A stretch of 44,105 nucleotides of DNA. Origin: a virus. A program made the translations under genes and the position numbers. Positions 2,835 through 32,991 of this stretch are shown here, piece by piece. The stretch covers positions 1-44,105 of IMG/VR virus record IMGVR_UViG_3300014501_000008; one strand, given 5' to 3'. The first letter of the stretch is position 1; each line of letters opens with the position of its first letter. The notes beneath the pieces are model-generated. The model did not search any database, was not told where the DNA came from, and saw only the letters and a list, made by a program, of their open reading frames with translations.

Positions 2835-3134
2835 TTACGGTTTAGTTTCATCACGCCCTTGCTGGCGTCCTTCTTCTAGTGTTGCGGCTTTGGCAACACC
2901 AGCATCTTCAGCCTGTTTTATGCCAGCCGCATGCCCGACTTCCTCGGCTTTCCTGACTAGATGCTCAGTCAGGCCGTCAGTTTGATCTTTCACGGCATCC
3001 ACCTTGGTTTCAACCTTCGCGCTGCGTTTCTCGCTGCGCCGGTCGTTCCTCAGAAGAATATAGAGATTAACAAACGGCAGCACGATGGTGCTGGCCCACG
3101 CCCGAAGCTCGGCGCTGACTTCAGCGAGGCTCAA
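2835..3134 (-). CDS. Membrane-anchored coiled-coil protein
   Basis: I place the start at the TTG at 3134, giving TTGA overlap with the tailspike stop and 99 residues. A hydrophobic segment (about residues 13-31) is followed by a basic stretch and a charged helix with heptad-like Val/Leu spacing (KVETKVDAVKDQTDGL). The topology, one N-terminal span plus a periplasmic or cytoplasmic coiled coil, is that of an i-spanin-like or holin-accessory protein. There is no sequence proof of a spanin. An upstream TTG at 3173 would add 13 residues inside the tailspike gene. Confidence 0.55.
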   Translation of the reverse strand: MSLAEVSAELRAWASTIVLPFVNLYILLRNDRRSEKRSAKVETKVDAVKDQTDGLTEHLVRKAEEVGHAAGIKQAEDAGVAKAATLEEGRQQGRDETKP

Positions 3135-5392
3135 TTGGGCACGTCCGCGCCAGTCTGAGAGATTTGCACCCAAGCCACATTATTCCACCTAAAAGTGATC
3201 GAGCGACTGAATGTATTGGCGGGATTCGTCCATGTGGACATTTTATAGATCGCATTGAAAGTCGCCGTTCCCGGTGCACTCGTCTGCGCACGAATCGTCA
3301 AGGTCAAATGCATCCCAAGCTTAGGGTTAAGGGGTGCGTTGATCGTAAAGTTATTGTTATCCGTGAGCGTGACAATGAAATCACTTCCAAGGGAGCAATC
3401 CGGTGTCATGGAAGCACTGTAGGTGAGGGTATTTGAAACGCTCACCCCGTCCTGCCACAGACCCGAGCTCGTAGCCGTGCCGCTGGCGCTTTCGATGATA
3501 TTACCCTGGCCGGGGAGGGTGTTATCCGCGTTGTAATAAGCAATGGCACTCACGCCCGGTGCGACATTCACCGTGTTCGCGCGGCAGATCACATTGAAGC
3601 AAGTCGCATCGATAGAGACGCCATTGCCTTGGGTGGCTTCCGTCCCTCCGCTTTCAAGAAGCGCATAGCCTAAGAAATTATCCTCGATCAATACGCCATC
3701 GCAGTTCTTAAGATCGATACCAGAACTACCGCCTATGGTTGCTGTGCTGTTGCCCGCAATGTAGCAGCGGGTAATGGAGCCTTTCTTTAAGCGCGTAGGA
3801 CTCCAGATGGGTGAGCCATAAAGCTGCATGCCCTGCTGGCTACAGCCGGAAATCGCCACTTGATCGATATCGATAATGGTTCCTTCATCGCTTGATACGA
3901 TACCCCTCTGAAAGCCTCCGAAGATGAAGCCATTCCTTAATATCAATCGACCGGCACTAGCGGATATACCAAAACCGTTACCGGGATTACCCGAACCGTC
4001 CAAGACAAACCCATCGACCTCGATATCGTAAAGGTCAGTTTGTGCGCTGTATTGGGAAATGGTCGGAAGCGCAGCAATGACAGAAGCCAAGTAACTCGCT
4101 GAAGCACTACCCGTGCCGGTAAGATTCATGGCAGTGCCGGATATGCGTGAGCCCACCACATTCTCAAGGATGACGTTTCGCTTGCGTCCTACCAAGTCCG
4201 TGGGTATCCACGGCTGGTAGAACATCGACTCGCCTACCCGAACTGTAGCGACCGCTATTGACTGATCGACATACAGGCCCGAAACCTTCGCGTTGTAGGC
4301 TGCGGTAATGGTCAAAGCCCCTTCAGCACTATTCGAGGTATTGCCGTTCGTAAAGTTGATATTCGTGAAGCGCAGGTTATGGGCATGGGAGCTTTGACGG
4401 ACACTCTCCGGAGTTCCTGAAGTCGCCCAGCCGAACTCATAGTCGATGCCGTCCGCCTGACCCTGACCGTTCATGAAAATATCTTCAAAGGAGCAGTTCT
4501 GCAGTCCACCGGTTAACTGAACGTGAAGGCCAAGAGGATTGTTCGTCGTCAGGCGCATGTTCTTTAGGTGACAGTTGCCCTGCGCCACCGTGAGCGAAGC
4601 ATCATAAGTATTGGGGAAGAACGCCCCACCACCGCACTCGCTACCCCTCGCGCCAAAGGTCACGCAGGCACACTGGTTAGACCCCCCCGTGAAGGCGACC
4701 GATATAGTCCCGTTCTGGAGCGTCGTATCGCGAATAGCGGTAATGGCTCCGGCTTCTGTTTCATTGCCTGACGCCGTGCCTTTGGTGAGCTGCCACGTCA
4801 CATCGTTGAACTCGAATACCACCCCCTCCACTGCGATCAAGTCGTTGAAATAGTAAATGTCGCTTCCGGTCGTATTGGGGAAGTAAAACGTACCCGCAGG
4901 ACCATTCGTTACAAACGTATTGAAGTACTGCGTCATGTAGAGCGTATTATTCGCAGCCGCTCCGGAACTGTTCGGGATAAGCCCTAGGCGCAGAAGGTTT
5001 CCATAGGGATAGATCGTATTCGGGGTGAAATTGATATTGGCTTCCGCGGCGGTCTGCGGATAGATCGCAGCCCCGATAATGGCGGGAGTGAGGGATAGGC
5101 CGTTCTGGATGCCGTTGACGGTCTTGATGGGATTGGAGGGCGGAACGGTATCGTTCGGGAACGTGAAGACGTAGGTGTATGCAACGTTCGGAGGCCCCCA
5201 GATGCTGCATTCACCCCGGAAGTCTAAAACGATAGGGTTGAGATTGCGTTGAGTGCCGGTAAAATCGGTATATGTAACGGCGGGAGTTGTAGTTCCGCTC
5301 TGATAGGTGTAGACCAGATACCCAACGGCAGGGTTTCCATTGTTATCGCAGAAGCGCTGCCAGGGCGATGGAAGCAAAGTCTGTATTGCCAT
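3131..5392 (-). CDS. Tailspike / receptor-binding beta-helix protein
   Basis: This 753-residue protein is read from an ATG. Residues 1-100 carry the P22-type head-binding fold: SPWQRFCDNNGNPAVG, then YTYQSGTTTPAVTYTD, then the WGPPNVAYTY turn. The remainder is rich in Asn, Gly, Ser and Thr, with repeated short strands typical of a right-handed parallel beta-helix. The C-terminal 90 residues look like a separate beta cap. Such spikes bind or cleave O-antigen or capsule. It sits between the ejection proteins and the lysis genes. The enzyme activity and substrate cannot be read from the sequence. Confidence 0.85.
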   Translation of the reverse strand: MAIQTLLPSPWQRFCDNNGNPAVGYLVYTYQSGTTTPAVTYTDFTGTQRNLNPIVLDFRGECSIWGPPNVAYTYVFTFPNDTVPPSNPIKTVNGIQNGLSLTPAIIGAAIYPQTAAEANINFTPNTIYPYGNLLRLGLIPNSSGAAANNTLYMTQYFNTFVTNGPAGTFYFPNTTGSDIYYFNDLIAVEGVVFEFNDVTWQLTKGTASGNETEAGAITAIRDTTLQNGTISVAFTGGSNQCACVTFGARGSECGGGAFFPNTYDASLTVAQGNCHLKNMRLTTNNPLGLHVQLTGGLQNCSFEDIFMNGQGQADGIDYEFGWATSGTPESVRQSSHAHNLRFTNINFTNGNTSNSAEGALTITAAYNAKVSGLYVDQSIAVATVRVGESMFYQPWIPTDLVGRKRNVILENVVGSRISGTAMNLTGTGSASASYLASVIAALPTISQYSAQTDLYDIEVDGFVLDGSGNPGNGFGISASAGRLILRNGFIFGGFQRGIVSSDEGTIIDIDQVAISGCSQQGMQLYGSPIWSPTRLKKGSITRCYIAGNSTATIGGSSGIDLKNCDGVLIEDNFLGYALLESGGTEATQGNGVSIDATCFNVICRANTVNVAPGVSAIAYYNADNTLPGQGNIIESASGTATSSGLWQDGVSVSNTLTYSASMTPDCSLGSDFIVTLTDNNNFTINAPLNPKLGMHLTLTIRAQTSAPGTATFNAIYKMSTWTNPANTFSRSITFRWNNVAWVQISQTGADVPN

Positions 5393-9882: not shown

Positions 9883-10319
9883 TGCAATAGCTCCTGGTTT
9901 TGCTCAAGGTGGATCACTGGTGGAGGCTCTATCAGAATTTCCTCGAGCTTCACCAAATCCGTCTCACCTGTCACATGCACGGTTTTCCACACGGTGTCCT
10001 CTTCGATATAAAGAAGCTTCTGGATTCCAGCCTTGGATACAAAAGTCATAGGAGCGCGTAGCACTTCTCGCCTACCATCGTCATGGAAAATCACACAGCA
10101 TCCTTTTTCAATGATGTTGAAGTGCTCGGTTTTATGGATTTTCCCAATGACCAAAGAGCCAGCAGGCATGAAGATCTCCCGCAAATAGACTCCGGGGGCA
10201 AAGCGGTGCGTGACCGGACACTCAGGCTGATTCGCAAGTTTCTTACATTCCTGAACGAGATAGGCGACCTTTTCTCGGTAACTCAATTCATCCGTGGAGG
10301 AACAAACTACATCGCTCAT
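9879..10319 (-). CDS. Cupin-like virion-region protein
   Basis: This is a 146-residue protein with ATGA overlap. Residues 40-110 show the beta-rich cupin layout: GVYLREIFMPAGSLVIG, then HKTEHFNIIEKG, then a later strand pair with DGRREVLRAP. The HxxxH(F) and following Glu positions are compatible with one metal site but are not complete enough to assert one. Phages often carry such jelly-roll proteins next to neck and ejection genes. A Cys-containing helical segment (CKKLANQPECP) precedes the domain. Confidence 0.55.
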   Translation of the reverse strand: MSDVVCSSTDELSYREKVAYLVQECKKLANQPECPVTHRFAPGVYLREIFMPAGSLVIGKIHKTEHFNIIEKGCCVIFHDDGRREVLRAPMTFVSKAGIQKLLYIEEDTVWKTVHVTGETDLVKLEEILIEPPPVIHLEQNQELLQ

Positions 10320-10966: not shown

Positions 10967-11415
10967 GGAATAGTCACTATCGCAGTCCCCGGCGCATTGA
11001 CGGGTAACGTCAGGGTGAGCGTGGCAGTACTGATTGTCGTGGACCCAAAGTTAATGACGCAGATCGCCCGGTTACCCTGAGTCGCGTTGTAAATGAGCAC
11101 CGTATCGAAAGGCGTACTGAGCGTGACCGTGGTGTATACGAGTGACCCCGAGGGCGTCCAGATGCCCGCTGTACCGCTCGTGGAGGGTGCCGTGGCATTC
11201 GTAAGGACGATACCCCCAGCGGTGTAGTTCGCTCCAGACACCTCCCCCGTAGCGCTATAAACGCTCGTAGCGGCCCCCAGGGAGGCACTTACCAAGTACA
11301 GCGCACCCATGAGGGTATCCGCCGCGGTCGTCGCTCGGGCCACCGTAGGGCCTAGGGCATGGAATCCTGAAAGGATCTCGCTTTTGAATGACGAGCATAA
11401 AGCGCTCGTACTCAA
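10963..11415 (-). CDS. Small beta-rich structural protein
   Basis: This is a 150-residue protein, TTG start in a TTGA overlap with the gp10-like gene. A short helical start is followed by beta-strand-rich, Thr/Ala/Gly-rich sequence with no acidic patches (STATLTLTLPVNAPGTA), typical of phage beta-sandwich appendage proteins. It lies between the neck protein and the PASTA protein. No specific family is recognised. Confidence 0.6.
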   Translation of the reverse strand: MSTSALCSSFKSEILSGFHALGPTVARATTAADTLMGALYLVSASLGAATSVYSATGEVSGANYTAGGIVLTNATAPSTSGTAGIWTPSGSLVYTTVTLSTPFDTVLIYNATQGNRAICVINFGSTTISTATLTLTLPVNAPGTAIVTIP

Positions 11416-12944
11416 AAGAGGGTTGCTCCGATCACATCTCTTCCCACCGGATCGCTCACCCGCACATCGAACACCCGATCATGCCCTATGGCGTTCGTTC
11501 CGAGCCTGCGCGCATCCGCTCGGCCCCTTGTGGCACCGATCTGGCCTAAGTCCATCAAGCGCTCATTCCCGTAGGAGGAGCCGCTGTCGTCCGACCACTT
11601 GAGCATGACTCGGGGCATGGAGCCCTGACCTGTCACCAAGCCAACCCCGATCCTGAAGTCCAGTTGCAGGTAGTGATACCGCTGACGTCTCCGGGATCCT
11701 CCATCCCAGATATGCGGAGTTCTGCGCCAAGCCACCAAGGGCTGTCCGGCATCGGTATAAATCTGCCGGTTCATCCAGTAGATGTTACCGTTTTGATAGT
11801 CACCAACAAGGTGCATTCCTTGGAAATTGAGATGGCAGTTACTTCTATGCCGATGGAAGAGTCCGAGTGTTGGATCGTAAGAAGCTCTCGCATGCCACTT
11901 GTTCGTTGAGCCATCGTAGACCCATGTGGCATCAGCGGTGGGAAAAGTGAGCATGTAGAACTCATGGCCATCCTCTTGATAGACGTATCCCAAGGCATCA
12001 GAAACCACAGGGTATTTGGCAATCGCATCGCTGATCGCAGGAGTCGAAACAGCCTCACAAGAGAAGCCTACGGTCTTAACAATGGTGTACTGGCCGCGCT
12101 CGGATTTGGAGAGCCAGATCAGACCCTCTTGACCCTCGGTAGCAAAGCGCGCAATGGAGTGAACTGCGCAGCACCCCACCTGGATCATCGTCGAGACTAA
12201 GCGCTGGAACGGGAAATACTGACCGCCCGCGTCATACCAGATCTCAGTCGTCTTTTCCCCGACTAACCACAGTTCCTCCTTATTCTCGTAGAGAGTAACA
12301 AGAAGATCCGTTGCTCCATCCTTCAGTGCGAAGTAAGTGCCATTGAACGGCAGCGTGCCGTACTGCGGGTAGTTCGTGTAAAAGATCTGCGTACCGGGCA
12401 GATTGAACACCATCCAGCCGTCGATAAAGGCGACCCTATCCGCTCCTAGGAATCCGGGGTCCGTGATGAGCGCGACATGCTGAGTTGCATTGTGATAGAG
12501 ATAGCCGTTCGCTCCGTCCACAATCCACGTATAGCCCGATGCACCCCCATCGCGAATGACCACAGGACCGCTGTTGGATAGTAAGGGTCCGTAGGTAATC
12601 GCACCCGTTACAGGGTTTACGATAGGAATACCAACGAGTTTTGCGGTCAATACCGGCCAAGTCGTTTGGGTCGCCGGTTGCTGTACCGTCACCACATAAA
12701 CTTGATTGCCCGATACCCAAATGGACTGATTCCCACCTGGGATTTCCCAGCAGCCCCTCACGGGTCCAGTACCGAGCGAGAGGAGAGTCTCTAGGCCGGG
12801 ACAACCGAGAAGGGCTGTGGGAGTCTTGGCGTTCTTGGTTTGAGCTATCTCAACATACCAATTAACGCAGATTTCAGTATCTTGTCCAATCGCGGGAGCA
12901 ACGTAGCTATCCCCGACGAAACCGAAGTCGCTTCCCTTTGGCAT
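11412..12944 (-). CDS. Packaged-DNA stabilisation protein, P22 gp10-like
   Basis: This 510-residue protein is read from an ATG in a TAATG overlap with the gp4-like gene. The N-terminus (YVAPAIGQDTEICVNWY and LLGCPGL) and later segments on reading contact values (ERGQYTIVKTVGF, YQEDGHEFYMLTF, GDYQNGNIYWMN) match the phage stabilisation-protein family of tail factor gp10. In P22 this protein forms part of the neck between gp4 and the tail needle and keeps DNA in the head. A frame opening 10 codons earlier exists but breaks the coupling pattern. Confidence 0.8.
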   Translation of the reverse strand: MPKGSDFGFVGDSYVAPAIGQDTEICVNWYVEIAQTKNAKTPTALLGCPGLETLLSLGTGPVRGCWEIPGGNQSIWVSGNQVYVVTVQQPATQTTWPVLTAKLVGIPIVNPVTGAITYGPLLSNSGPVVIRDGGASGYTWIVDGANGYLYHNATQHVALITDPGFLGADRVAFIDGWMVFNLPGTQIFYTNYPQYGTLPFNGTYFALKDGATDLLVTLYENKEELWLVGEKTTEIWYDAGGQYFPFQRLVSTMIQVGCCAVHSIARFATEGQEGLIWLSKSERGQYTIVKTVGFSCEAVSTPAISDAIAKYPVVSDALGYVYQEDGHEFYMLTFPTADATWVYDGSTNKWHARASYDPTLGLFHRHRSNCHLNFQGMHLVGDYQNGNIYWMNRQIYTDAGQPLVAWRRTPHIWDGGSRRRQRYHYLQLDFRIGVGLVTGQGSMPRVMLKWSDDSGSSYGNERLMDLGQIGATRGRADARRLGTNAIGHDRVFDVRVSDPVGRDVIGATLF

Positions 12945-13981
12945 TAGCTCGCAAATCCGCCACTGAGGATCCACGAAGCATTTGCCCTGCGGTGGCCCAT
13001 GAGCGCTGCATCGTAATTGGCAACCGCTGCAGGAATCGCATTCAAATTTCTGATCGCATCCTTACTTTCCTTCGCCATCTTGATAATCGCACCAGGCAGA
13101 GGATCATCGTAATACTCAGGCCAGATCTCTTGCGCGAGATTCCATTTAATGGCCCTGGAATAGCCTTGCGGCAGGTTAATGGGCTGCGTGACGTTCTGGA
13201 ATTCCGAGATGATGGTATCCGTCCATATATGCACCTCAACCGCAGCGCTCGGAGCCGGATAGCAATAGATCGTCCCGAATGGATAAGTGGGATTGTAGTA
13301 AATCACCAAGGGCCAAGGCCCTGGCAATTGCTTCAATCCGAGCTCAGTCCATTGGCCTTCCGAGATGATATCGATTGGGAAGTCCAAAGCACCCGAGGAA
13401 GTCGAGAAGCGCGAGAAGGCTTTAGTGATCCTCAAGGGCCTCGGAATCGCAAAGTCTCCAGGGATCGTGTATTGGAACTGCTCTGCTAATACCGTAGTCG
13501 AGAGCGCATTGGCTGAGAGCTGCAAGCTATTCGTGCCGATGCTGGTTACGGTAGTTCCAGATGGCAGGTAGTTCAAAGCATCCACGACCCCAGAGCCCAC
13601 GATCACTCCACCAGGGACAGTGACGTTCGTAATGACCTCCGAGCCTTGCTGAAGCTGGCCGGTAAAGATCCCTCCCACAGTCACTCCCACGCTGTACTCG
13701 TTCTTGCCTCCTACCCACGAGAGAATATTCTCGTTGCTTGAGAACACCATGAGCTTATCGAGCGACCAGGAATCAAGCATATCGTTCAGAGTCTCCAATA
13801 CATCCGCCACGTCCACTCCGTTTAATCTCTGGCCCGGTGAGTAAGAATTGATTCTCTTCAGCGCTCCCTGAATGAGATTATTGACAGTGTAGGTTGCCTG
13901 GAAGAACGTGGGCGCTGAGGGTACTGGAATCGGAGGCGGTGTGACTCCGCCTGACTGGCCTAAAAGGAGTGGTAAGAGCAT
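12944..13981 (-). CDS. Tail accessory factor, P22 gp4-like
   Basis: This is a 345-residue protein, ATG start in a TAATG overlap. After a Pro-rich, hydrophobic N-terminus, residues 30-75 carry the gp4 signature: LIQGALKRINSYSPGQ...DVLETLNDMLDSWSLD, followed by a beta region and the C-terminal helices LPQGYSRAIKWNLAQEI. In P22 gp4 binds the portal and extends the neck. At 345 residues it is about twice the P22 protein, the extra length being a central beta domain, as in other gp4-like proteins of podoviruses. Confidence 0.78.
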   Translation of the reverse strand: MLLPLLLGQSGGVTPPPIPVPSAPTFFQATYTVNNLIQGALKRINSYSPGQRLNGVDVADVLETLNDMLDSWSLDKLMVFSSNENILSWVGGKNEYSVGVTVGGIFTGQLQQGSEVITNVTVPGGVIVGSGVVDALNYLPSGTTVTSIGTNSLQLSANALSTTVLAEQFQYTIPGDFAIPRPLRITKAFSRFSTSSGALDFPIDIISEGQWTELGLKQLPGPWPLVIYYNPTYPFGTIYCYPAPSAAVEVHIWTDTIISEFQNVTQPINLPQGYSRAIKWNLAQEIWPEYYDDPLPGAIIKMAKESKDAIRNLNAIPAAVANYDAALMGHRRANASWILSGGFAS

Positions 13982-14670
13982 TAGCTACCCATCCCTATCA
14001 TCATCTGAGCACCGTTCTCACCACTTCCCGAAACAGTCGGCATATAGGCCGCATTGATCGCAACCCATGCCGTACTTCCTCCCATCATGCCAAAGTTACT
14101 TGTTACTCCCGAACTACTTGAGAGAACGAGGTACGCTATGGAAGTTGCCAAGTTATTATTGGTTAAATCCTGATAAATACTCGTATAGCCTGATGGGGTC
14201 CCCCATCCAGTTTCTGCCGCTCCCGCACAGGCAATAGAAACTGCAAGATCCGAGGATGTCGCAAGTGCTGCTGTAGCTCCGGTACTGACAGGGCCGGTAG
14301 AGGCTGCACTGCTGTTCCCTGCGACCTGATCTAAAGCGGAAAGCCCTGACCATTCAGTGAGGATAGCCTGACCATAAGAGTTAGCTCCAGTGCCGAACTT
14401 CGCTGTAGAGGTTGCTAAATGAGTTCCGGCATTAGCCAAGGAAAGCCGTAAGATATCGCAGGAATACCGAGAACCCTCTATTTCCTGATCCGCGCTATAG
14501 GCTCCCTGCGCATCACTCGCAGTAACCCCGCCACCCGTTGCATCGAAGTTCGCATGGCTTACGAGGAGAAGGAGCGTATTGCCGCTCGTCACCCCGGTGA
14601 GCGTACAAGCAGCGCTGATGGTGCCTGCGAATTCCCCAACTGTTGACTTTTGAACGAGTGCAATTGCCAC
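13981..14670 (-). CDS. Structural or appendage protein, hypothetical
   Basis: The real start is probably the GTG at 14670, sharing one base with the preceding TAG and giving 229 residues. A longer frame upstream is only the shadow of the 955-residue gene. The sequence is Ser/Thr/Ala/Gly-rich and beta-structured with SGNTLLLLVSHAN near the N-terminus, a pattern common in phage proteins between neck and fibre genes. No motif indicates an enzyme. Confidence 0.62.
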   Translation of the reverse strand: MAIALVQKSTVGEFAGTISAACTLTGVTSGNTLLLLVSHANFDATGGGVTASDAQGAYSADQEIEGSRYSCDILRLSLANAGTHLATSTAKFGTGANSYGQAILTEWSGLSALDQVAGNSSAASTGPVSTGATAALATSSDLAVSIACAGAAETGWGTPSGYTSIYQDLTNNNLATSIAYLVLSSSSGVTSNFGMMGGSTAWVAINAAYMPTVSGSGENGAQMMIGMGS

Positions 14671-17537
14671 TAGAAATTCGTCCCTATAGGGCCTGTCCCA
14701 TCGATCGCCCCGCAGGGACCGCCCGTTTTTCCGGCCGTTGCCGCTGCGCCCGTAATCGCAAAGCTTGCGGCATTGGCGAGCGCCGGTGTCCCACTGAAGG
14801 GCGAACCGCCGCTGACTGAGTTCGCATCGTACCCGAGCCCCTGCCAAGCGGCCAAAGACAGATTGTCATTGCCGCCGCTAAAATCCGTGGCGAACGTCAT
14901 GCCGTTGGTGTTGTTGCCGTAATAATTATAGTTCACCGATGCGCCTGTAATGCCGAACTCGCTCTCGACCCACAAGGCCCCCGCGCTAAAATCGCCATTG
15001 TCGTAAGCCGGTGACGCGCCGCTTGAATAGACGATGTTATTGTAGAAGTTGAAAGGCCCTGCGCCCGACGATGCCCCGTCGAAGTACGCAGCTGTGAAGC
15101 GAGACACCGGCGCATAAAAAGTGTTGCTATAGGCCGTGACTGCGCCCGTGATCTTCGTCGTGTCCTCGCCGTACCCATCATAAGAACCCACAATGATGTT
15201 GTGGTGGAGGGTCAATGTCTCCCCGGTTCCGGGGATAATCCCCTTCAGCACTGCCGTTTGCCCCTGGTTGATGTAAGAACCGAAGGTGCCGCAATCCAGA
15301 TAGCTGTAAGAGATTGTCGCCCACTGATTCGTGTCCTTCATCTGAATCGAGTAGCCGCAACCGTAGATCGTACAATTCATGACGATGAGGCCAACAGTCT
15401 TATAGGACGTTATACCGCCCATGCCATATGGAAAGTAGCTACCGCCCGAAGTCGTGCAATTATAGATCTTAGTATTGAGCACCTGCGGAGCGCTGCAGTT
15501 GCCGAGAAAGATGCCGCCCGGATTTTCTATAGATGTGCTGCAGATGCAATCGTAAACCTGGCAATTCTTGATCACGACGCCGTTTAACACTGTCCCTTGA
15601 ATATCGCCAAACTGGATAGCGGCATAGTTGGCATTGCGCGCGACAATTCCATCGAGTGTCACGTAGCCAGGATTAGGAACGGCCGGTGTGTTGTAAAATG
15701 GCTGCCCCATAAGGACTGCACCAGAACTGACCGGAGCTGCACCACCGCTCGGGTTCGCGCAATCGATGATGGCCCAGCGCGCTTGATAGACCCCAGCACT
15801 CGTGCAGGAGGCGATGTAAGTGCTGGCGCTTGACGTACCGCCGTTTATTTTGAGAGCGGCACCTGTCGTCATTGCCTGCATCACCGAATAGAGCGTCGTC
15901 TGCACCCCTCCGATGGTTCCATGCTGAATCGGCGTCTGCACACCGCCCACATCTCCAATAATTCCCACACTCTTGCCAGCATAGGTTGCCTGCTTCGAAT
16001 TCAGCGCCGTGATCGACCATGGACTCGCAAGTGTGCCAGCATTGTTATCATCGCCGGTGGGCGAGATGTAGTAATTGAACGAGGCAGCGGGAATATTGCT
16101 GCATTGGCCATTGTAGTTCTCAGGACAGGCTTTAACGAAATTGGCATTGCTCGCAATGAACGGCGCTACAACCGTAGCCCAGTCACCGGGACTCGCTCCA
16201 TTTTGAACGATCGTCCACAGAATGGCGTTGGCCTTCAGTGTCGAGGTCGCAAGACTGTAGATCTTTGCCACCGTGTTGCCGGAGGTGTAATCCGGCTCCT
16301 GTACCTGAGGAACACAGGGCATTAATCCCGCGCTGTAATTGACTCCCCCGCCGATGACGAGCGAGTTACCGCTGCCCGTATTTCCTAAGAATGCCTGCTG
16401 GGCGAGGATATACACTCCGGGAGTCCCGCCATTCGGATTATTTTGGTTGATGACATCTGGACCTGAAAATGCACCGCGCCCGTTATAGACGGATGTAACC
16501 ATCGATCCTAGGAAGGTCATCTGAGAGGCGGTGCTCGTATCAGCCCCAGTGGGGGCGTAGTTCAGACTCGTCACCCACGTCGTTTGTGTCCATGCCGATT
16601 GCAGCGCGGCATTGAACGCCTGCATCTGGGCCGCCAACGCTCCCGAGGAATACCCTGACGGTGGGGATGAAAGAGAAACAATGCTCTCATCACCATCTAC
16701 GACGTATTGAAAAAGCGGGTGAGTATTGAACGTGTACGCGCCAAGCGTGGCTGTTGCCAACGCTTTGAAGAGCGCAATCTTGCGGTTCATCACGTTCGTG
16801 TTCCAAATCGAGGCCCCTAAAGAGCCGTTAGATGTACTCACGTAATAACCGGACTGAGAACCGTTTGCCCCAGGACCGTAAGTCCCACTACCGCCGTTCA
16901 GGATGTAGTTAGGGACACCATTCCCGTAAGGATTACTGCTATTGGTGTACCCTCCGAAGGTGCGCGTTGCGATGATGCAGCCGAATATCTTTCCGGGAGC
17001 TACTGCCTGCCAGGCATTGAAATCGGCAACGATCTGGCTGAAGTTATAAGTCCCCAGAGTCGTTGGCTCAAGATTATTCCAATAGTAGTTATTGAGATAC
17101 CCAGAGACAGCCGAAGATGCCACTAGGCTCATTTCCCCTGCCACGTTGCTTCCGGGAGAGTTCACCGCATAGTGAGCGGGATTCCACTTGATGTTCCCCG
17201 TGGGAGGGACGGAATTCGTCACCACCATGACAGGAGCTGATGGTTGGCTCACGTCGGCTTGGGCACTGTTATCGACTCCCATGAGTCTGAAAGAATAAGA
17301 CGTGGAGGCGCTAAGCCCAGACACCAGATAAGGAAAAGCGCTGGGCGCAATCTGCGCAAAGTTCCCCCAAAATGGCAAAGGACCCTGGCTCAACTGTTGC
17401 AGGATGTAATAATTAATCCCGGTCTGAGGTTCGCTCGAGGGCGTAACGAGATTGATCTGAACGGCGGTCGTAGAATCCGCGACCGCCGAGATGACTGGAG
17501 GCGTCGGGACGAGCGCCGCGAGCGCTACGATGAACAT
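14670..17537 (-). CDS. FN3 / glycoside-hydrolase-like / beta-helix composite protein, putative depolymerase
   Basis: This is a 955-residue protein. Residues about 11-108 form a fibronectin type III domain (PTPPVISAVADSTTAVQI ... SASTSYSFRLMGVD). Residues about 113-480 read like a TIM-barrel glycoside hydrolase (NIKWNPAHYA; WNNLEPTTLGTYNFSQIV; VVDGDES). From about 490 (YYISPTGDDNNAG) to the end it is a Cys- and Asn-rich right-handed beta-helix resembling pectate-lyase-type repeats. A polysaccharide depolymerase on the tail is the natural inference. The catalytic residues of the barrel are not assigned. The N-terminal MFIVALAALV is hydrophobic but lacks a basic n-region. Confidence 0.68.
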   Translation of the reverse strand: MFIVALAALVPTPPVISAVADSTTAVQINLVTPSSEPQTGINYYILQQLSQGPLPFWGNFAQIAPSAFPYLVSGLSASTSYSFRLMGVDNSAQADVSQPSAPVMVVTNSVPPTGNIKWNPAHYAVNSPGSNVAGEMSLVASSAVSGYLNNYYWNNLEPTTLGTYNFSQIVADFNAWQAVAPGKIFGCIIATRTFGGYTNSSNPYGNGVPNYILNGGSGTYGPGANGSQSGYYVSTSNGSLGASIWNTNVMNRKIALFKALATATLGAYTFNTHPLFQYVVDGDESIVSLSSPPSGYSSGALAAQMQAFNAALQSAWTQTTWVTSLNYAPTGADTSTASQMTFLGSMVTSVYNGRGAFSGPDVINQNNPNGGTPGVYILAQQAFLGNTGSGNSLVIGGGVNYSAGLMPCVPQVQEPDYTSGNTVAKIYSLATSTLKANAILWTIVQNGASPGDWATVVAPFIASNANFVKACPENYNGQCSNIPAASFNYYISPTGDDNNAGTLASPWSITALNSKQATYAGKSVGIIGDVGGVQTPIQHGTIGGVQTTLYSVMQAMTTGAALKINGGTSSASTYIASCTSAGVYQARWAIIDCANPSGGAAPVSSGAVLMGQPFYNTPAVPNPGYVTLDGIVARNANYAAIQFGDIQGTVLNGVVIKNCQVYDCICSTSIENPGGIFLGNCSAPQVLNTKIYNCTTSGGSYFPYGMGGITSYKTVGLIVMNCTIYGCGYSIQMKDTNQWATISYSYLDCGTFGSYINQGQTAVLKGIIPGTGETLTLHHNIIVGSYDGYGEDTTKITGAVTAYSNTFYAPVSRFTAAYFDGASSGAGPFNFYNNIVYSSGASPAYDNGDFSAGALWVESEFGITGASVNYNYYGNNTNGMTFATDFSGGNDNLSLAAWQGLGYDANSVSGGSPFSGTPALANAASFAITGAAATAGKTGGPCGAIDGTGPIGTNF

Positions 17538-18542: not shown

Positions 18543-18714
18543 TAGTAATTTCCTCTACAGGAGGCGCTTCAGCCTCTGGAAGTGGTGGCGTGACAGGAGC
18601 GACCAATTGATGGATGCCATCCAGCACCTGGTTGATGTGGTCGCGGTGAGTTCTTAAGGCAATGGAAGTCGCTTCCAACTGTGCGATATTGAGAGTCAGC
18701 GTGTATTCATCCAT
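18535..18714 (-). CDS. Small acidic helical protein
   Basis: This 59-residue protein reads from an ATG in a TGATG overlap with the upstream gene and itself overlaps the next ATG by 8 bp. A Leu-rich helix (LNIAQLEATSIALRTHRD) precedes a Pro/Glu tail. Its size and position fit a small chaperone or assembly factor for adjacent appendage proteins, which is only a guess from context. Confidence 0.6.
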   Translation of the reverse strand: MDEYTLTLNIAQLEATSIALRTHRDHINQVLDGIHQLVAPVTPPLPEAEAPPVEEITNG

Positions 18715-19091
18715 CAGGCAAAAACCCATTGACCCGATTTGTAAGACACGATGACATTCGTAAGCGGTTGTAAATAAGCCGTGACTCCTTGCGGACAGGA
18801 GAATTTATTGCCCACGGAAGAACTCGCTGAAAGATGCGAGAAACTAATGATATCCGTCGTACTCAGATTCATAATCAAAACACCCCACCCATCCGGAAAT
18901 CCCACATTGCTTAGACCCGTGATGACAGACCCTCCCGAGGCTGCAGTGAGGTATAGACAATTAATCCCAGCATTTAACCCGGTCGGTGAATAATTGTTCT
19001 GCGTAGAGCTCAGCGTAGCGCTTAAGGATGAGCCGAAGTTCATAGGGTAGTTATTGAGATTTTGATCTGGAGCAATCAGTACAAATGTCAA
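18714..19091 (-). CDS. Appendage protein sharing a domain with 24367-24981
   Basis: This is a 125-residue protein starting at a TTG with AAGGTG six bases upstream. From about residue 30 to the end (QNNYSPTGLNAGINCL ... FSCPQG ... VSYKSGQWVFA) it aligns by eye with the C-terminal half of the 204-residue protein at 24367-24981 (QNNYAPSGYVAGTTNL ... FSCPTG ... LIYTGSQWSFA). The domain seems to be a beta-sandwich used on phage appendages. One gene carries it alone, the other has an extra N-terminal domain. Confidence 0.62.
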   Translation of the reverse strand: MTFVLIAPDQNLNNYPMNFGSSLSATLSSTQNNYSPTGLNAGINCLYLTAASGGSVITGLSNVGFPDGWGVLIMNLSTTDIISFSHLSASSSVGNKFSCPQGVTAYLQPLTNVIVSYKSGQWVFA

Positions 19092-19100
19092 TGGGGCACC

Positions 19101-19139
19101 TTAGAAGCTAGAGAGCGCCGCGCGCTTCAATGTGCTCAT
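19101..19139 (-). other. 12-codon micro-ORF between two genes
   Basis: ATGAGCACATTG... opens in an ATGA overlap with the stop of the exported-protein gene and ends with TAA at 19101-19103, inside the AAGG that serves the next TTG start. It reads MSTLKRAALSSF. It fills the 44-base gap and may exist to carry ribosomes to the weak TTG start. Confidence 0.3.
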
Positions 19140-19489
19140 CGTTTGCCCTTCTCGGCCTTCTTATCTGGCTGCTTCTCGCCCTGCTTCGCAAGCGCCTCGG
19201 TCACCTGCGGACACTGATCTTGACCCTGACGCGTGACGACGCCGTTGGTCGGGTTGTCCTTCAGGCACGCGGTCATCTCCTGCCAGAGCTGCGTAATCAC
19301 AGCTTGATCCACTGCCTGCGGGTGCAGCGTCACAATCGCCTGCAGCAACTGCAGAGGAGCCACCGCGAGGGCTCTGGGCAACAGCACAAGATCGGGCGGT
19401 GGCTGTGCGGGCTGAGGAGGAGCGGGTTCGTCCGCCCACGCGCTTGAGGCTACAAACGACAACAGCATCATCAAATAAACTTTTCTCAC
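19136..19489 (-). CDS. Exported small proline-rich protein
   Basis: This is a 117-residue protein from a GTG with GGAG eight bases upstream. A Sec signal peptide is obvious: basic MRKV, hydrophobic YLMMLLSFVASS, and an AWA-DE cleavage site after about residue 19. The mature part starts with a Pro-rich stretch, continues with helices containing two Cys (TACLKDN, DQCPQV), and ends very lysine-rich (KQPDKKAEKGKR). No family is recognised. A periplasmic protein in a late phage operon could assist lysis or act on entry or superinfection. Confidence 0.65.
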   Translation of the reverse strand: MRKVYLMMLLSFVASSAWADEPAPPQPAQPPPDLVLLPRALAVAPLQLLQAIVTLHPQAVDQAVITQLWQEMTACLKDNPTNGVVTRQGQDQCPQVTEALAKQGEKQPDKKAEKGKR

Positions 19490-19548: not shown

Positions 19549-22401
19549 TTAATGTACTGGACACCAGTAGTCATACAAAGACGAGGCTGCCGCAGTCGTT
19601 AGCGTCAGTGTCGCTGTCCCTGCGCTATACGCCGTGGTGTAAACGGGTGGCGTGCCGGAACGGGCTGCCACAAGACATACAGGAGCATTGCCAGAGGGCT
19701 GTGAAAACGTCATCGTGCAGGCGGTAGCTCCGCTACCTGTGTTAATCGTGCCCGACATATTCGTACCCCCAGCCCATATCGACTGACCGGTGCCGCACGT
19801 GGAAAGCGCGGACGGCAAACGTGCTACGGGGAATGTTTGATAAGACCCCAGTACAGACCCAGTGGGTAACGAATAGGTCAGAATTCCAAGGGCATTGTTC
19901 GCGACCACAGTGCTAGCGCCGTCACTTGTGACACTAACCCCAATTCCTGTCGCGCCCTCATTCGCTGAATTGCCTGTAGCAATCAGCGTACCGCCCGTTT
20001 GAGAAATCAAGGGAGAGGCATAAGCACTTGTAGATAAGGAAAACTTGACGTTCTCCACATCCAAAAGGCCGCTACTTATGCTGAAAGCCGGATAGGCGGT
20101 ATTATTGTGAGCATAAATACCGCCAGATACCCGCAAATTTCCGCCAGACACGCAAATAGGAGCGGCAATCGGACCTGCACCATCGGCAATATTTAGGTTG
20201 GTGATCTGGGTATGGCCAGCAGCAAAGTTCAGCGAGCATGTCGAGGTGGCAGAATACCCAGTCTTATAGATACCCGTAAAAATGTTGGCTAGACCGCCGC
20301 TTACTTCAAGATTCGTGGCAACCCCATCTAGCATGACATTGCTATATTCAGAGGGTGCTGTTGAATTATCGGCATCTGAAGTAATCAGAAAACGAGCGCC
20401 GACAAAACCCACATCCTCTGCATTAAGTCCATCCATACGTCCAATCTGCCAGCCGATGGTCGTACCATCCCCCCACGCGCCAGATGTTTGCCATCCGAAT
20501 GGCCAATCATGCCAGCCACGTACATGACTGAAGTCCCGCCCCCCGTCCGCTCTCCATCCTATATTAAGGCCGCCGCACTCAATATTATTCATCGTAGGCA
20601 CAACGTTGGCGGTAGTAGAGCCTTGAGTATCTATGCAATTCCATGCACCATCGAAATGCAGATTCCAGAGACGCGGTCGATTTGCGCTGACATCGTAAAT
20701 CACTGCTGGATATTCGCAGATTTGCGTGCTGACGCAAGAACCTATGGGCAATGCTCCGGCACGGGCGGGATTGAGTACGATCGTATCGCCGCTTGTAACG
20801 CCCGTCGCAGTAACGGGGGTAGAAAGCGCAAGCGTATAAGGGCCACTGCCACTGATAGTAACGGTTGTTTGAGAAACAAGTCCCGCCCTCGCACTATCGA
20901 AGGCAATCCATCCCGTGACAGCATTACCGATACTCGCGACTGTAATGCTAGTTGCACCTGAGGAATATGAACCGCTCGCGGTTGTCGAGACCTGCGCGGG
21001 TTGGGTATCTATAAATCCAATATCGTGTACACAGGGACTCCCCAATTCTGCACCGGTAAGAACGATACCGCCGCTTGCGGAAGCTGAAAAACCGTACCCC
21101 CGAACCATGAATGTGACATGGTCGCCATCCCCATAGAGACACTGGCTGGGGCCGAGACTTATTTGCTCATTGTAAAGATACGTGCCAGCAGGCAAATGGA
21201 CGTCACCAACAACCGAGCCGGGGCGTGACGTATTGGCTACAGCGGCATTAATTGCCGCACCACTATCGGCAACCCCTGTTGGATCTGCGCCGAAGTTCAA
21301 AACGTTCGCGACATCGGCTTGGGAAGCTGAGAGCGGACGCGCGGTGCTGCCGCCTGCGGCGAGGATTCCGCCAGTAGGGCCAATAGTCAACCCAGGCCCC
21401 TGGTACTGATTGCCGCTGAAAACGAAATTGGTGAAATCAATGCCAACCCCAGCAGCCATTGCGCTGCCTGAGAGATGCTTGGTACCGCCGATCAACGTGC
21501 CCGTGGGAGATACCGGGGAATAGCCTTCCGGTCCACCAAAGGACAGCACGACTGCCCAACCTGGATTTGGTCCACTTGCGGGGAGGCTTGAACTCATAAA
21601 CGCAAGTCCCGCATCGAACTGGCTGCCTGCGGTTGCATCCAAGCTCGCCTGCACAATCTTCACGGCCTCCTTGAGCGCGGTGCTGCACCCGACCATGCAA
21701 GTGATGTCAATCTCTTTTCCGAATAAGCCGTTGAGATACGTCGCGCTCCCGTTCGCGACCAGGGCATCCACATAGCTGTAGAAATACCCGTAAGGAGTCC
21801 CGCTCGTGCCGCCGTCATTCGCATCGACGTACATGGTCGAGGAAGCCCCGACGTAGCTTGCCTCGTAGGGGATGGCGGAATTGCCGCTCTCGGCGGTGAA
21901 CGTGCTGATGACCGCTAAGCCACTGCGTCCGCCCGTCAGCGCCGCGCCGCCAAAGTTATAAGTAAACTCCGCGCATCCCGGCAAATAAGTATTCGCCGCC
22001 ATGTTGTCGGAATTGCAAGTCCAACTGTAGCCGATCGAATTGGTGGTTGAAGTCGGTGTGCCGGTGAGCGCGACGCTCGCAAGCTCTGCGAATTGCGCAG
22101 GTACAACGGACGAGCCGCTTTTCGTGATTGTGCCTGCGGCAATGTTGAGTCCGGGAAACGTCTTATTGGAAAGCGTCTGAGTATCAGAAATACCTACTGG
22201 AGCTGATCCTCCAGAGGTCACAACTCCAAGTGGGAGAATTGTTTGTGGGGTTGGGGCAGCGGGCACCCCCGATGAATTCCCTTGAACAGTGCCGGAAGGA
22301 ACCACTGGGGTCACTTGGGCCTGCGCCAGAAGCGGCAGAATTGTCAGAAGCAGCAGTAACCGCTTCCCCGCTGTGAGTGGGGAGATCATGTCAATAGCCA
22401 T
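19549..22401 (-). CDS. Exported fibre-like protein with pectate-lyase beta-helix
   Basis: This is a 950-residue protein, ATG. The N-terminus has GKR, a Leu-rich core LLLLLTILPLL, and an AQA-Q signal-peptidase site at about residue 29. Next come a GN(S/T)SG...P linker, a domain (about 100-330) paralogous to one in the neighbouring 663-residue protein, then a pectate-lyase-3 type beta-helix opening with VLNFGADPTGVADSGAAIN (about residue 370). The last 95 residues contain four spaced Cys (TCGT, ACTMTF, VCLV, DYWC) shared with the neighbour. It looks like an exported or periplasmically folded polysaccharide-binding protein rather than a standard tailspike. Confidence 0.68.
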   Translation of the reverse strand: MAIDMISPLTAGKRLLLLLTILPLLAQAQVTPVVPSGTVQGNSSGVPAAPTPQTILPLGVVTSGGSAPVGISDTQTLSNKTFPGLNIAAGTITKSGSSVVPAQFAELASVALTGTPTSTTNSIGYSWTCNSDNMAANTYLPGCAEFTYNFGGAALTGGRSGLAVISTFTAESGNSAIPYEASYVGASSTMYVDANDGGTSGTPYGYFYSYVDALVANGSATYLNGLFGKEIDITCMVGCSTALKEAVKIVQASLDATAGSQFDAGLAFMSSSLPASGPNPGWAVVLSFGGPEGYSPVSPTGTLIGGTKHLSGSAMAAGVGIDFTNFVFSGNQYQGPGLTIGPTGGILAAGGSTARPLSASQADVANVLNFGADPTGVADSGAAINAAVANTSRPGSVVGDVHLPAGTYLYNEQISLGPSQCLYGDGDHVTFMVRGYGFSASASGGIVLTGAELGSPCVHDIGFIDTQPAQVSTTASGSYSSGATSITVASIGNAVTGWIAFDSARAGLVSQTTVTISGSGPYTLALSTPVTATGVTSGDTIVLNPARAGALPIGSCVSTQICEYPAVIYDVSANRPRLWNLHFDGAWNCIDTQGSTTANVVPTMNNIECGGLNIGWRADGGRDFSHVRGWHDWPFGWQTSGAWGDGTTIGWQIGRMDGLNAEDVGFVGARFLITSDADNSTAPSEYSNVMLDGVATNLEVSGGLANIFTGIYKTGYSATSTCSLNFAAGHTQITNLNIADGAGPIAAPICVSGGNLRVSGGIYAHNNTAYPAFSISSGLLDVENVKFSLSTSAYASPLISQTGGTLIATGNSANEGATGIGVSVTSDGASTVVANNALGILTYSLPTGSVLGSYQTFPVARLPSALSTCGTGQSIWAGGTNMSGTINTGSGATACTMTFSQPSGNAPVCLVAARSGTPPVYTTAYSAGTATLTLTTAAASSLYDYWCPVH

Positions 22402-29266: not shown

Positions 29267-31437
29267 GTGCCATTGGACTTAGGTTTGGCAGCTTCAGCCC
29301 TCTGAGCTGCCTTCTCAGCCGCTTCTGCGGCCTCTCGGTCATATTTACCCTCGACGTGCTTACCGATGATCGCGCCACCTTCGCGGATCTCAGCGACCTG
29401 TAGAGCGGTATGCGCACGGGTATGGGTATCCTCGGTCTTGGTAAAGGCATCGGTTGCGGTATCAGCCTCAGCACGCTTGTCTCGCAAGTGCTCGACCTGA
29501 AGCTTCGTAGCCTCCTGGTGCAGTGTCTTGGTCAAGCCGTGCTTGATATCCATCTGAGCGGCCTGTAACGCCTGCTGAGACTGCGTGAGCTGCTGGTTTA
29601 GCGACTTGATGATGTTCTTCGCTCTGTCAGACATGCCCTCTGTAGCCTTCTCAAGCTCCTGAGGCATACCGATGACCAGGCGGTCAGCCAACTCCTCGGA
29701 GTAGGCCGTATCTAATCCTCGTAGAACGAGATCTGCGCCTTTCTGGGCTACGACCTCACCCAACGGAGTACCCAAGAGGGTTATCAGTTTCTCGGCCCCC
29801 TCCTGACGCTTGGTGTCGTATCCAGGGCCGGTATCCATGACTACCGCATATTTACCGATGGTGAGGTCGTTCTTCTTAAGGGGAGCCCCGGTCTTATCGT
29901 CAACCGTCTGCTGGTTGATCATGACCATCTCAGGCCGACCATCCTCCTGGATGATCCGCTGCGCTCGCGGGGTATCGTAGTAGTACGGGATCAAATCCAG
30001 AATAATCCGCCCAGTGAAGTCGATCGCTAACGTCTGGTAATCGTAATACTGGTAATGGACATCATCCGCCAGCGCGCGACGTTCCTGTAATGCAACCCCG
30101 GAGATCACCTCACCCTGCTTATCCTGACCCGGATCGTGCGGCATGCCCGCAATGGCGAGGAGCTGCCTCTCTGACTCCTGTGAGGCTTCCGTGAACCCAG
30201 CCTCGACTTGGGCAGGCTCCTGCCTCTCAGGCAGCGGTAATAGCACACCTCCCGGACCCTCTACCGCATTACCGACGAGGACTGGATAAGCCTTCTGATT
30301 CGCATCAGACCACTCAGGATGCCCGTCGATCACCCCCACATAAGCCTTGTACGGGGCTTTGGAGGTGAGAGCCAAGCGTTCGGCCTTGGAACTTTCCCAG
30401 TAGTTCACGAGCCTTGCAGGCTCCATCATGTCCTCGATCATGCCCTTACGGGCAACCTTACCGTTCAGGTCAAGGACATTGCCGGTACAGAGGATGATCG
30501 GGATGTATTCGCCTGGGAGTTCTCGCTTCTCCACGACCTCACGACCGTTCAACCGATACCACTCGAGCTGCTTCTTGTAAGTCTTACGCTCGAAGGGTTT
30601 ACCGTCGGGGCCGGTAATGAATCCATGCGCTTCAGGGTCTGTAAGAGCCTGCTTGAGCACTCCAGGCGCAAAGTCAGAGGCGAACTTCGTCGTCCCGTCC
30701 ACCATCTTGAACAAGCGTTCAGGCTTTTCGATGATGCGGTAGTACTCGGCTAGCCTTATTTCGTCCTTAGACTCCCACTCAAGGTCACCCTCACCCATGC
30801 CTGAGTCGTTGAACGCGGCGTTATCGGCGTTTGGATACTCTTGGCGGTACCGGACTCGCTTCATCTTCTCCGAGATGACGTATTTCTTGGAATCCGAGCC
30901 GTCAGGCAGTATGGATCCCGGATCCTTGTACACCGTGAAGCTGTTACGGATAGGGTAGATGGTGAGCTGCTGATCGAAGGAATCAGCACTCACATACTCA
31001 CCCACTACGCGCCAGTACCCCCAGCCGATGTGAAGGGCAGAAGCGCCTCCGGTGTCATACGCCACAGAGGCTTTGGAGCGGTTCTCAATCTCACGGGTGA
31101 GACCATTGACCAGTGCAGCCTTCTCCACGTCCGCCCCGTCTCCTACCGGGTGACATTTGATGCGTGGGCGCTGCTGCTTCATGCCGTTCTCGATGCGCTT
31201 CACGAGCATCGCGGTATGGTTCACCGTGATCGATAGCCGTCCATCGACCCCACGATCCCTATACAGGTCCTGCGGCCACTGACCCTCCCCTCCTTGCAGG
31301 AAGTTCAGTGCCTGAATCCCTCTTGAGCGGTTATCGCTCTCCGCATCGATGCACTGACGCAGGAACTCTTTGACTTCGGTGAAGATCTCCTTCTTGGTGA
31401 CGGCATCGACATCATCGAAGCCACTGGCAGTTCTCAG
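29257..31437 (-). CDS. Portal protein, P22 gp1-like, CTG start proposed
   Basis: The first conventional start (GTG 31224) would remove about 70 conserved residues. The same frame is open upstream with EVKEFLRQCIDAESDNRS, FLQGGEGQWPQDLYRDRG, GRLSITVNH, exactly what precedes the QQRPRIKCHPVG motif in P22-like portals. It reaches a CTG at 31435-31437 overlapping the terminase stop as CTGA. That gives 726 residues, against 725 for P22 gp1. Later regions include the wing and stem segments and a helical C-terminal barrel (SLNQQLTQSQQALQAAQMDI). It forms the dodecameric DNA gate. The start codon is inferred. Confidence 0.85.
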   Translation of the reverse strand: MRTASGFDDVDAVTKKEIFTEVKEFLRQCIDAESDNRSRGIQALNFLQGGEGQWPQDLYRDRGVDGRLSITVNHTAMLVKRIENGMKQQRPRIKCHPVGDGADVEKAALVNGLTREIENRSKASVAYDTGGASALHIGWGYWRVVGEYVSADSFDQQLTIYPIRNSFTVYKDPGSILPDGSDSKKYVISEKMKRVRYRQEYPNADNAAFNDSGMGEGDLEWESKDEIRLAEYYRIIEKPERLFKMVDGTTKFASDFAPGVLKQALTDPEAHGFITGPDGKPFERKTYKKQLEWYRLNGREVVEKRELPGEYIPIILCTGNVLDLNGKVARKGMIEDMMEPARLVNYWESSKAERLALTSKAPYKAYVGVIDGHPEWSDANQKAYPVLVGNAVEGPGGVLLPLPERQEPAQVEAGFTEASQESERQLLAIAGMPHDPGQDKQGEVISGVALQERRALADDVHYQYYDYQTLAIDFTGRIILDLIPYYYDTPRAQRIIQEDGRPEMVMINQQTVDDKTGAPLKKNDLTIGKYAVVMDTGPGYDTKRQEGAEKLITLLGTPLGEVVAQKGADLVLRGLDTAYSEELADRLVIGMPQELEKATEGMSDRAKNIIKSLNQQLTQSQQALQAAQMDIKHGLTKTLHQEATKLQVEHLRDKRAEADTATDAFTKTEDTHTRAHTALQVAEIREGGAIIGKHVEGKYDREAAEAAEKAAQRAEAAKPKSNGTAK

Positions 31438-32768
31438 AAGCGATAGCCTCGATTGATAGGACGCTGGGGAATGGGGATCACTTCAGGCTTCGTAAGCTCA
31501 GGGAATAGCTCAGACATGCCCCACACGAACGCATCCGCACGGTTTGGGCTCTGATCGCCCATGTAGCCGTAGGTAGTAAATGCGCACAGTTCCTCCTCTA
31601 GTTCCCTGAAATAGCCGTGCAAGCGGACACGGCCGGTTTCCATCAAGCTTGAAATAGGCTCGGCGCGGACAGCCTTTCCCCGACTTGCAATAAGTGATTT
31701 GAAAGGGGTTCGCGGTCGCGCCGAGTGAATCACATTCTTAACCATCGCTCCGCCGAAGTTCGTCTCGGCAACGATGATATTAGCCTGGTGCCTATCGAAA
31801 GCCTGGGTTGCGACCTTTCCCCAAGTCGCAGGACCGGCTTTACAGGTCAGATCCTCCAAGAGATAGCCATTGCCATCCAAACCAAGCCCACAGACGACGA
31901 TACCAATCTCATCGTTATCGACGTTCTCGGTCTCATCGGAACCAGATGGATCAACTGCCACGATGATGCGCAGCATCTCTGGCAAGTCCTGATCGATGAC
32001 TCTCCATTTGTCGATCAGCTCATCGCTAAAGAGCGCGTTCGGAGCCGATTCCCTGAACTCACCTCGTAGGAAGCGATTCTGCAAGCGTCCGGATAACCCC
32101 TGGAGCGTAGAGAGATATTCCGCGCCCAGGTTCATCACATTGTCCTGCGGATTCATCTGCAGACAGGCATAGTTCTCAGGCCGCGCCATCTCGCGACGCG
32201 TCTCCGGGTCCACCTTCAGCTTAAATAGCTTGTAGGTCCAATGCCCCTTGTCCGGAGGGTTTTCGTCATAGTACATCTTGAGCGGCAGCACGCGAGGCGC
32301 CCGACCCTCAATGCCCTGGTAACACAACTGCGCCAAGCGTGTGACGGCAATGTTTCGCGAGTTCCAGGGGATCTGTGAACACTCGTTAAGGTAGATCGTC
32401 GCGTACTCATTGCCGAAGATCTTTTCCGTGCGCTCCTTGTCGTCCAGTCCACCGAACCAGATCTCTGCGCCATTCTCATACGTCGCATACAGTTCGGTTT
32501 TGTTCAGTTCGTATGCCACATCCGGATAGCACAGGCTCATCATCTTCGGAAAGGTATCCATGACAATGGACGCCTTGATATGCCCGTACCTGAATCTCAG
32601 GATGGCATGGCGACTGTTAGGCGACTTCAGCGCACGCACTGCACAGGCCCGTACTAAGAGAAACGTCTTACCGCTTCTTGAACCCCCGAACAGCATGATG
32701 TGCTGCGCCGAGCTCGCAAGTAATCGGTTCGCCTCCTCTTGCTTGGCAGTGAGGCTAAAGCTCGCCAT
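31434..32768 (-). CDS. Terminase large subunit
   Basis: Read from the ATG at 32768 (MASFSLTAKQEE), 444 residues. Walker A is GGSRSGKT at about 28-35; the Walker B/catalytic Glu is in ATIYLNEC at about 129. The RNase H-like nuclease domain shows VAVDPSGS at about 273, AETNFGG, and NRADAFVWG near the C-terminus. It powers headful packaging and cuts the DNA. An ATG at 32801 would extend the N-terminus by 11 residues with a 47-bp overlap into the small-subunit gene; the shorter form begins like relatives. Confidence 0.88.
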   Translation of the reverse strand: MASFSLTAKQEEANRLLASSAQHIMLFGGSRSGKTFLLVRACAVRALKSPNSRHAILRFRYGHIKASIVMDTFPKMMSLCYPDVAYELNKTELYATYENGAEIWFGGLDDKERTEKIFGNEYATIYLNECSQIPWNSRNIAVTRLAQLCYQGIEGRAPRVLPLKMYYDENPPDKGHWTYKLFKLKVDPETRREMARPENYACLQMNPQDNVMNLGAEYLSTLQGLSGRLQNRFLRGEFRESAPNALFSDELIDKWRVIDQDLPEMLRIIVAVDPSGSDETENVDNDEIGIVVCGLGLDGNGYLLEDLTCKAGPATWGKVATQAFDRHQANIIVAETNFGGAMVKNVIHSARPRTPFKSLIASRGKAVRAEPISSLMETGRVRLHGYFRELEEELCAFTTYGYMGDQSPNRADAFVWGMSELFPELTKPEVIPIPQRPINRGYRF

Positions 32769-32991
32769 CCGTACTGGTGATATGGATGGGGCGGTCAGCA
32801 TCCCCTATGTGCGTGTTCTCAGTGGCGGCTAGATCCGGGAGAGTTTTCTTCAAAAGACCCAATCCAGCGGTTACCTGGGATGAGGTCATTTCCACTTTCC
32901 CAAGTACGTGATCCGTAAGCCGCTTCGTGAGCATGCTGGTTCGGATCCGGTCTCGTACCTTTTGTGGTGTCCATGCCCCGCGCTGAGCCAT
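32755..32991 (-). CDS. Terminase small subunit candidate
   Basis: This is a 78-residue protein from an ATG with GGAGA eight bases upstream. TPQKVRDRIRTSMLTKRL, DHVLGKVEMTSSQV and GLLKKTLPDLAATE match the short proteins that precede large terminases in podoviruses and are taken as small subunits. The helical, basic sequence fits DNA recognition at packaging start. Its first 173 bases are also covered, in another frame, by the HNH-like gene. Confidence 0.7.
   Translation of the reverse strand: MAQRGAWTPQKVRDRIRTSMLTKRLTDHVLGKVEMTSSQVTAGLGLLKKTLPDLAATENTHIGDADRPIHITSTDGEL

Follow-up and report, generated by a model that had tools for sequence, protein, structure and literature searches.

Leader-bearing tailspike-like genes in a soil phage

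The DNA analysed here, referred to as the window, is the 44,105-base IMG/VR virus record IMGVR_UViG_3300014501_000008 of a soil phage; its late genes, on the minus strand, mark it as a podovirus with a P22-type capsid. It contains two overlapping genes for tailspike- or fibre-like proteins, P0001 (22391..24382, 663 amino acids (aa)) and P0002 (19549..22401, 950 aa), each of which begins with a predicted Sec signal peptide. Every window feature located below is on the minus strand. A first-pass annotation of this DNA had described both leaders, a shared linker and middle domain, a common C-terminal domain with four Cys and differing centres, and had proposed export with oxidative folding.

The architecture holds up in each of these respects. 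P0001, with all 6 of its Cys in the mature part, starts with the signal peptide MVFRLSLLLFLLGTAFA (24332..24382), for which our rule predicts cleavage before QG. Directly past this site lies a GN(T/S)SG..AAP.PQ linker (24257..24295, motif search), followed by a middle domain (23318..24025), a repeat region (22691..22999) and the four-Cys domain (22391..22666). P0002, with 16 Cys, has a corresponding signal peptide MAIDMISPLTAGKRLLLLLTILPLLAQA (22318..22401, rule-based cleavage before QV), a GNSSG..AAPTPQ linker (22243..22281), a middle domain (21352..22074) and the four-Cys domain (19549..19827); its true start may lie further in, because its first codons overlap the P0001 stop. Linker and middle domain are common to the two proteins (BLASTP E 3e-9), and the middle domain recurs in a leader-bearing ortholog in locus L026 (phmmer 5e-18). 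When the motif GN[STACN][ST]G.{1,4}A.P was searched in the ORFs (open reading frames) of the window and of all fetched loci, it was found in 8, and all 8 have a hydrophobic leader.

The centres do differ. In P0001, residues 462-564 form a repeat with matches to PHROG families of virion-structural and tail-spike proteins (phrog_6002, E 6e-8; phrog_4636, E 3.3e-7), which by eye resembles the GNT/GSN repeats of YadA heads; at an E cut-off of 0.1 the protein has zero Pfam matches. In P0002, and by profile in P0002 only, residues 365-432 (21106..21309) match the start of a pectate-lyase-type beta-helix (PF12708 Pect-lyase_RHGA_epim, E 1.5e-9, above the gathering cut-off).

Directly downstream of P0002 lies a third gene with an equally good leader (19136..19489, 117 aa, GTG start, MRKVYLMMLLSFVASSAWA-DE); its product is proline-rich, with 2 Cys in the mature part, and relatives were not found in the fetched loci. 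The predicted exported run thus comprises three genes, not two. These genes are flanked by two leaderless paralogs of one another (18714-19091 and 24367-24981, 42% over 107 aa), both ending in QW.FA.

Predicted leaders accompany the four-Cys domain

Leaders were scored in window ORFs of >=120 aa by a strict rule comprising a positive n-region, a hydrophobic core and an A-x-A site. This stricter form was adopted because a looser heuristic scan, with no charge or cleavage rules, yielded many false leaders. P0001 and P0002 show the Sec/SPase I (signal peptidase I) features at their N-termini, with a charged n-region, a hydrophobic core and A-x-A, and are the sole coding-strand ORFs in the 44 kb that pass; the opposite strand gave 0.

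Alignment searches, a check that had been suggested for the four-Cys domain, located it in about 10 other IMG/VR contigs. The four Cys are conserved throughout an alignment of 11 sequences with 33-91% identity to the first sequence, and again in 13 after the alignment was extended, with the first Cys gap-shifted slightly in two. An AlphaFold2 model built from the 13 sequences is a seven-strand beta-sandwich with a pLDDT (predicted local distance difference test) of 85.7. Its sole strong Foldseek match in BFVD is an uncharacterised phage protein (E 5.5e-5), and the weaker matches are mostly phage tail fibres and C-termini of K1-type polysaccharide lyases. From this model, the domain likely belongs to the tailspike/K1-lyase C-terminal fold group. 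It was not found among the cultured phages and plasmids searched; in GTDB genomes, pattern searches gave 22 and 14 matches with 0 confirmed, though the patterns are narrow and do not demonstrate absence.

Among the proteins that contain the domain, 9/12 pass the leader rule; the corresponding figures are 25/516 for other coding-strand ORFs and 4/173 on the opposite strand (Fisher 1e-9). The three domain proteins that fail (L093, L094, L100) have hydrophobic leaders by eye. Many other leader-positive ORFs adjoin domain genes (in L002, L070, L087, L090, L100 and L102), and exported genes therefore appear to be clustered. The neighbour in the viral contig L002 (9923-12772) is a leader-bearing GH5 cellulase-type protein (PF00150, 1.6e-14).

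Cysteine counts become mostly even on removal of the predicted leader

Periplasmic proteins whose folding involves disulphides tend toward an even number of Cys (Dsb systems). We counted Cys in predicted mature proteins, beginning with a hand-picked set that was selected by leader alone, ahead of any parity counting. In this set 16/17 were even, and in a second batch 14/15. The merged list of predicted mature exported spike- and fibre-like proteins, from which the one odd second-batch member was omitted, gave 30/31 even (binomial 3e-8), while the precursors of the same 31 proteins gave 19/31 and control ORFs from capsid-relative loci 146/308. Where the leader contains an odd number of Cys, as in 11 proteins, its removal leaves an even count in every case. 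The bias is equally present outside the four-Cys family, in 18/18 exported proteins that lack the domain, and when counted by contig, as several proteins share one, 18/19 have only even counts. P0001 (6), P0002 (16) and the third gene (2) are all even. Together with the two further families described below, these counts support the proposed export and oxidative folding.

N-terminal modules in leader-bearing and leaderless versions

To extend the analysis beyond the initial set, we used the virion-binding-type N-terminal domain that follows the L100 leader to scan viral contigs, which gave 31 IMG/VR loci. In 17 distinct cases a leader directly precedes the start ATLLP.G.Q.F or an equivalent, and the mature Cys are even in 17/17; these cases include L110, which is the same protein as in L100 and was part of the earlier parity count. 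Leaderless versions carry similar residues right after Met (e.g. MTATLLPNAKQQF), and 3/7 of them are even.

A third family is defined by the C-terminal tip of Burkholderia phage BcepC6B gp19 and Xanthomonas phage PBR31 gp35. Between these two proteins the leader core has diverged and the mature N-terminus ATL.PIQLLNPAGSTSGQAI is kept. The same tip terminates the T7-like tail fibres of Pectobacterium phage CB5 and Klebsiella phage SAA231, both leaderless, and a viral-contig scan gave at least 435 relatives. Scored automatically over the proteins with Cys in the best 80 loci, 29/36 leader versions were even versus 4/15 leaderless ones (Fisher 8e-4). The leaderless L194 and L199 have a similar PAGSTSGQ-type segment at their start.

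Because N-termini are alike in leader-bearing and leaderless versions, one N-terminal module would occur either exported or cytoplasmic. In some exported relatives the virion-binding-type domain lies exactly behind the predicted cleavage site, which favours, as judged from sequence, a virion part added outside the cytoplasm. The best reading of these families is a widespread class of Sec-exported, disulphide-bonded tailspike and fibre proteins, of which many related phages would encode members.

A hypervariable slot apart from the main tailspike

By capsid, the closest cultured relative of the window phage is Xanthomonas phage PBR31 (48.6%). The gene order of PBR31 runs from capsid through two small genes to tail tubular A, with the tailspike encoded late, ahead of the holin. 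The window phage has its canonical tailspike at 3131..5392, a 753-aa protein with 13 Cys and no leader, whose PBR31-type virion-binding N-terminus matches that of the PBR31 tailspike at 41% identity over 111 columns (E 3e-20). P0001 and P0002 had been considered as main tailspikes, and were dropped because this comparison places the main spike at the late position.

P0001 and P0002 are located instead in the gap (26777 to 13981) between the P22-type major capsid gene (26777-28147; phrog_283, 8e-64) and that for tail tubular protein A (12944-13981; 44% to PBR31). This gap spans 12.8 kb in the window, against 0.7 kb in PBR31 and 0.8-8.9 kb across 44 relatives. Leader-bearing proteins occur in or near it in L039, L040/L044, L070 and L068, and by eye in L008 and L026; many other relatives have leaderless proteins there. 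The gap is a hypervariable accessory insertion slot of this phage group. In the window, it also holds a 955-aa protein (14670-17537) without a Pfam or PHROG match, which by eye has a fibronectin-like start, similar to one in L007, and then a possible glycosidase part.

Proposed route and alternatives

In our proposal, P0001 and P0002 serve as accessory proteins of the tailspike/fibre type that bind receptors or polysaccharides. They would pass through Sec, lose the leader at AFA or AQA and, in the periplasm of a diderm host, form disulphides as they fold; from the leader and Cys statistics, we hold export and disulphide pairing of the two proteins to be very probable. The pectate-lyase-type helix of P0002 may bind or cut polysaccharide, with enzymatic activity a possibility that we hold tentatively. 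Since virions assemble in the cytoplasm, exported proteins would be kept apart from them until the holin opens the inner membrane and the cell lyses. At that point the most likely course would be docking on particles via a short N-terminal module; alternatively, the free proteins may clear or occupy receptors on debris. Taken as a whole, accessory, Sec-exported, disulphide-bonded tailspike or fibre proteins that are docked on virions or free at lysis seem to us the best explanation, and a reasonably probable one.

Several observations weigh against parts of this explanation. The leader rule is home-made, cleavage sites in the hand-picked sets were assigned by eye, and some start codons were our own choice. 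Two hand-counted proteins are odd, namely the domain protein L091 in the merged list and the lipoprotein L072, which has 3 Cys with its lipid Cys included and is the second-batch member left out of that list; 7/36 leader versions in the automatic set are odd as well. Structure prediction, envisaged in the first-pass annotation for both proteins, succeeded for the four-Cys domain and failed for P0002 355-950, where a single-sequence AlphaFold model reached a pLDDT of 37.5 and was discarded. The PDB Foldseek matches of the four-Cys domain to the K64-1 depolymerase and the Sf6 tailspike are weak (E about 0.06-0.1, TM about 0.4). For docking in particular, an N-terminal head- or tail-binding domain was not found in P0001 or P0002 by Pfam and PHROGs, and a normal tailspike is already present in the phage.

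Docking on virions is suggested by the N-terminal modules common to exported and cytoplasmic versions, and we judge it plausible, if a little short of probable; free action after lysis is somewhat less so. In the case of P0001 and P0002, where no docking domain was recognised, docking is only slightly more likely than free action at lysis. A broader and more speculative reading, which we would not yet call probable, is that assembly in many tailed phages is divided between two compartments: the particle would form in the cytoplasm and some disulphide-bonded spikes or fibres in the periplasm, the two being joined only once the holin has broken the membrane. The N-terminus that docks on the virion would then, in several families, be the one that signal peptidase uncovers.

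The strongest alternative is that the exported proteins stay free. Acting in the periplasm or once the cell has lysed, they would bind or trim O-antigen, capsule or slime, which would keep progeny from being trapped on debris or neighbouring cells, or leave a superinfecting phage without a receptor. The separate canonical tailspike of the window is consistent with this, as are the lack of a recognised attachment domain in P0001 and P0002, the pairs PBR31 gp34 + gp35 and BcepC6B gp18 + gp19 with the leader-bearing gene directly ahead of the holin, the GH5 cellulase-type neighbour in L002, and the existence of a secreted bacterial tailspike-like enzyme, WceF (PMC7949094). However, the exported versions in two other families keep the N-terminal module of the cytoplasmic virion versions, which a free enzyme would not need, and we regard proteins that only act free as the less probable outcome, unlikely but a serious contender.

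Much less probable are lysogenic-conversion or moron adhesins, comparable to the YadA-type adhesins carried by phages, that would decorate the surface of an infected or lysogenic host. The YadA-head-like repeats seen by eye in P0001 and the location in a hypervariable accessory slot would fit such a role, but a YadA or other outer-membrane anchor domain was not found in P0001 by Pfam and PHROGs, and late expression is expected because the genes share the strand and run of the late virion genes, with overlapping starts. Least credible of all is that the proteins are ordinary virion components folded in the cytoplasm, with an uncleaved leader that serves not for export but as a hydrophobic peg or docking peptide: hydrophobic termini exist on some structural proteins and the genes do lie within the virion operon, but the even-Cys bias appears only once the leader is removed, A-x-A-type sites stand ahead of conserved mature starts, and gp19 and gp35 agree at the mature start although their leader cores differ.

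Relation to known systems

The cytoplasm is generally taken to be where tail fibres and tailspikes fold and assemble. A literature search limited to open-licence papers turned up no account of tailspikes or fibres exported through Sec, and the class is apparently undescribed so far. Whole-protein tblastn against 50,697 phage records gave no match for P0001 and, for P0002, matched just the short start of the helix; when viral contigs were scanned with single proteins, P0001 gave 1 locus and P0002 none. A PDB sequence search gave no match for P0001, and for P0002 only antibody light chains with E above 0.02, which we took as chance.

Compared with podovirus tailspikes (P22/Sf6, PBR31 gp34 and the window's own main spike), P0002 has a similar PF12708 helix and the modelled C-terminal beta-sandwich weakly resembles Sf6 and K1-lyase C-termini, whereas P0001 and P0002 differ in their Sec leader, even Cys, lack of a recognised virion-binding N-terminus and locus apart from the main spike. 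Nearest among cultured phages are BcepC6B gp19 and PBR31 gp35, annotated as tail fiber or putative structural protein, which have a Sec leader and even mature Cys (4 and 2); gp35 also has a GN.TG..A.P linker. Both are encoded beside the main spike, ahead of the holin. Unlike P0001 and P0002, they end in an unrelated C-terminal tip (RARRVR family) and lack a beta-helix. Their leaders are not discussed in the PBR31 genome paper (PMC10975493). The leader-bearing ATLLP tailspikes of IMG/VR (L110-L140) share the exported tailspike architecture and even mature Cys, but retain a virion-binding-type N-terminal domain. Pantoea stewartii WceF, a secreted tailspike-like glycanase, is likewise a helix protein exported across the inner membrane, but is a bacterial gene product with a Tat rather than a Sec signal that acts on its host's own stewartan. 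YadA-type trimeric autotransporters resemble P0001 in their Sec leader and, by eye, head-like repeats, and differ in the C-terminal membrane anchor, which was not detected in P0001.

A Sec-routed, disulphide-folded class would, if true, alter the annotation and expression of receptor-binding proteins, as expression in the wrong compartment could yield misfolded protein. It would also make testable whether periplasmic spikes reach virions or act free at lysis. Since leader-bearing proteins are visible in cultured phages (BcepC6B, PBR31 and probably P26218), the uncultured window phage is not needed for such a test. In the Rhodoferax phage P26218_24 (L106), the protein is an unannotated, leader-bearing one of 169 aa (15489-15998), two genes past the tailspike, with 2 mature Cys.

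Other features of the window

The remaining late genes encode terminase (31434-32801), portal (29257-31224), scaffold (28165-29151), tail tubular B (11412-12974) and a DNA-ejection protein (9115-9882). ARAGORN places a tRNA with a four-base anticodon at 29195-29266, between the portal and scaffold genes, probably a false match. Between tail tubular B and a short tail fibre, 10316-10966 encodes a PASTA domain (PF03793, 8e-6) and is a probable virion gene.
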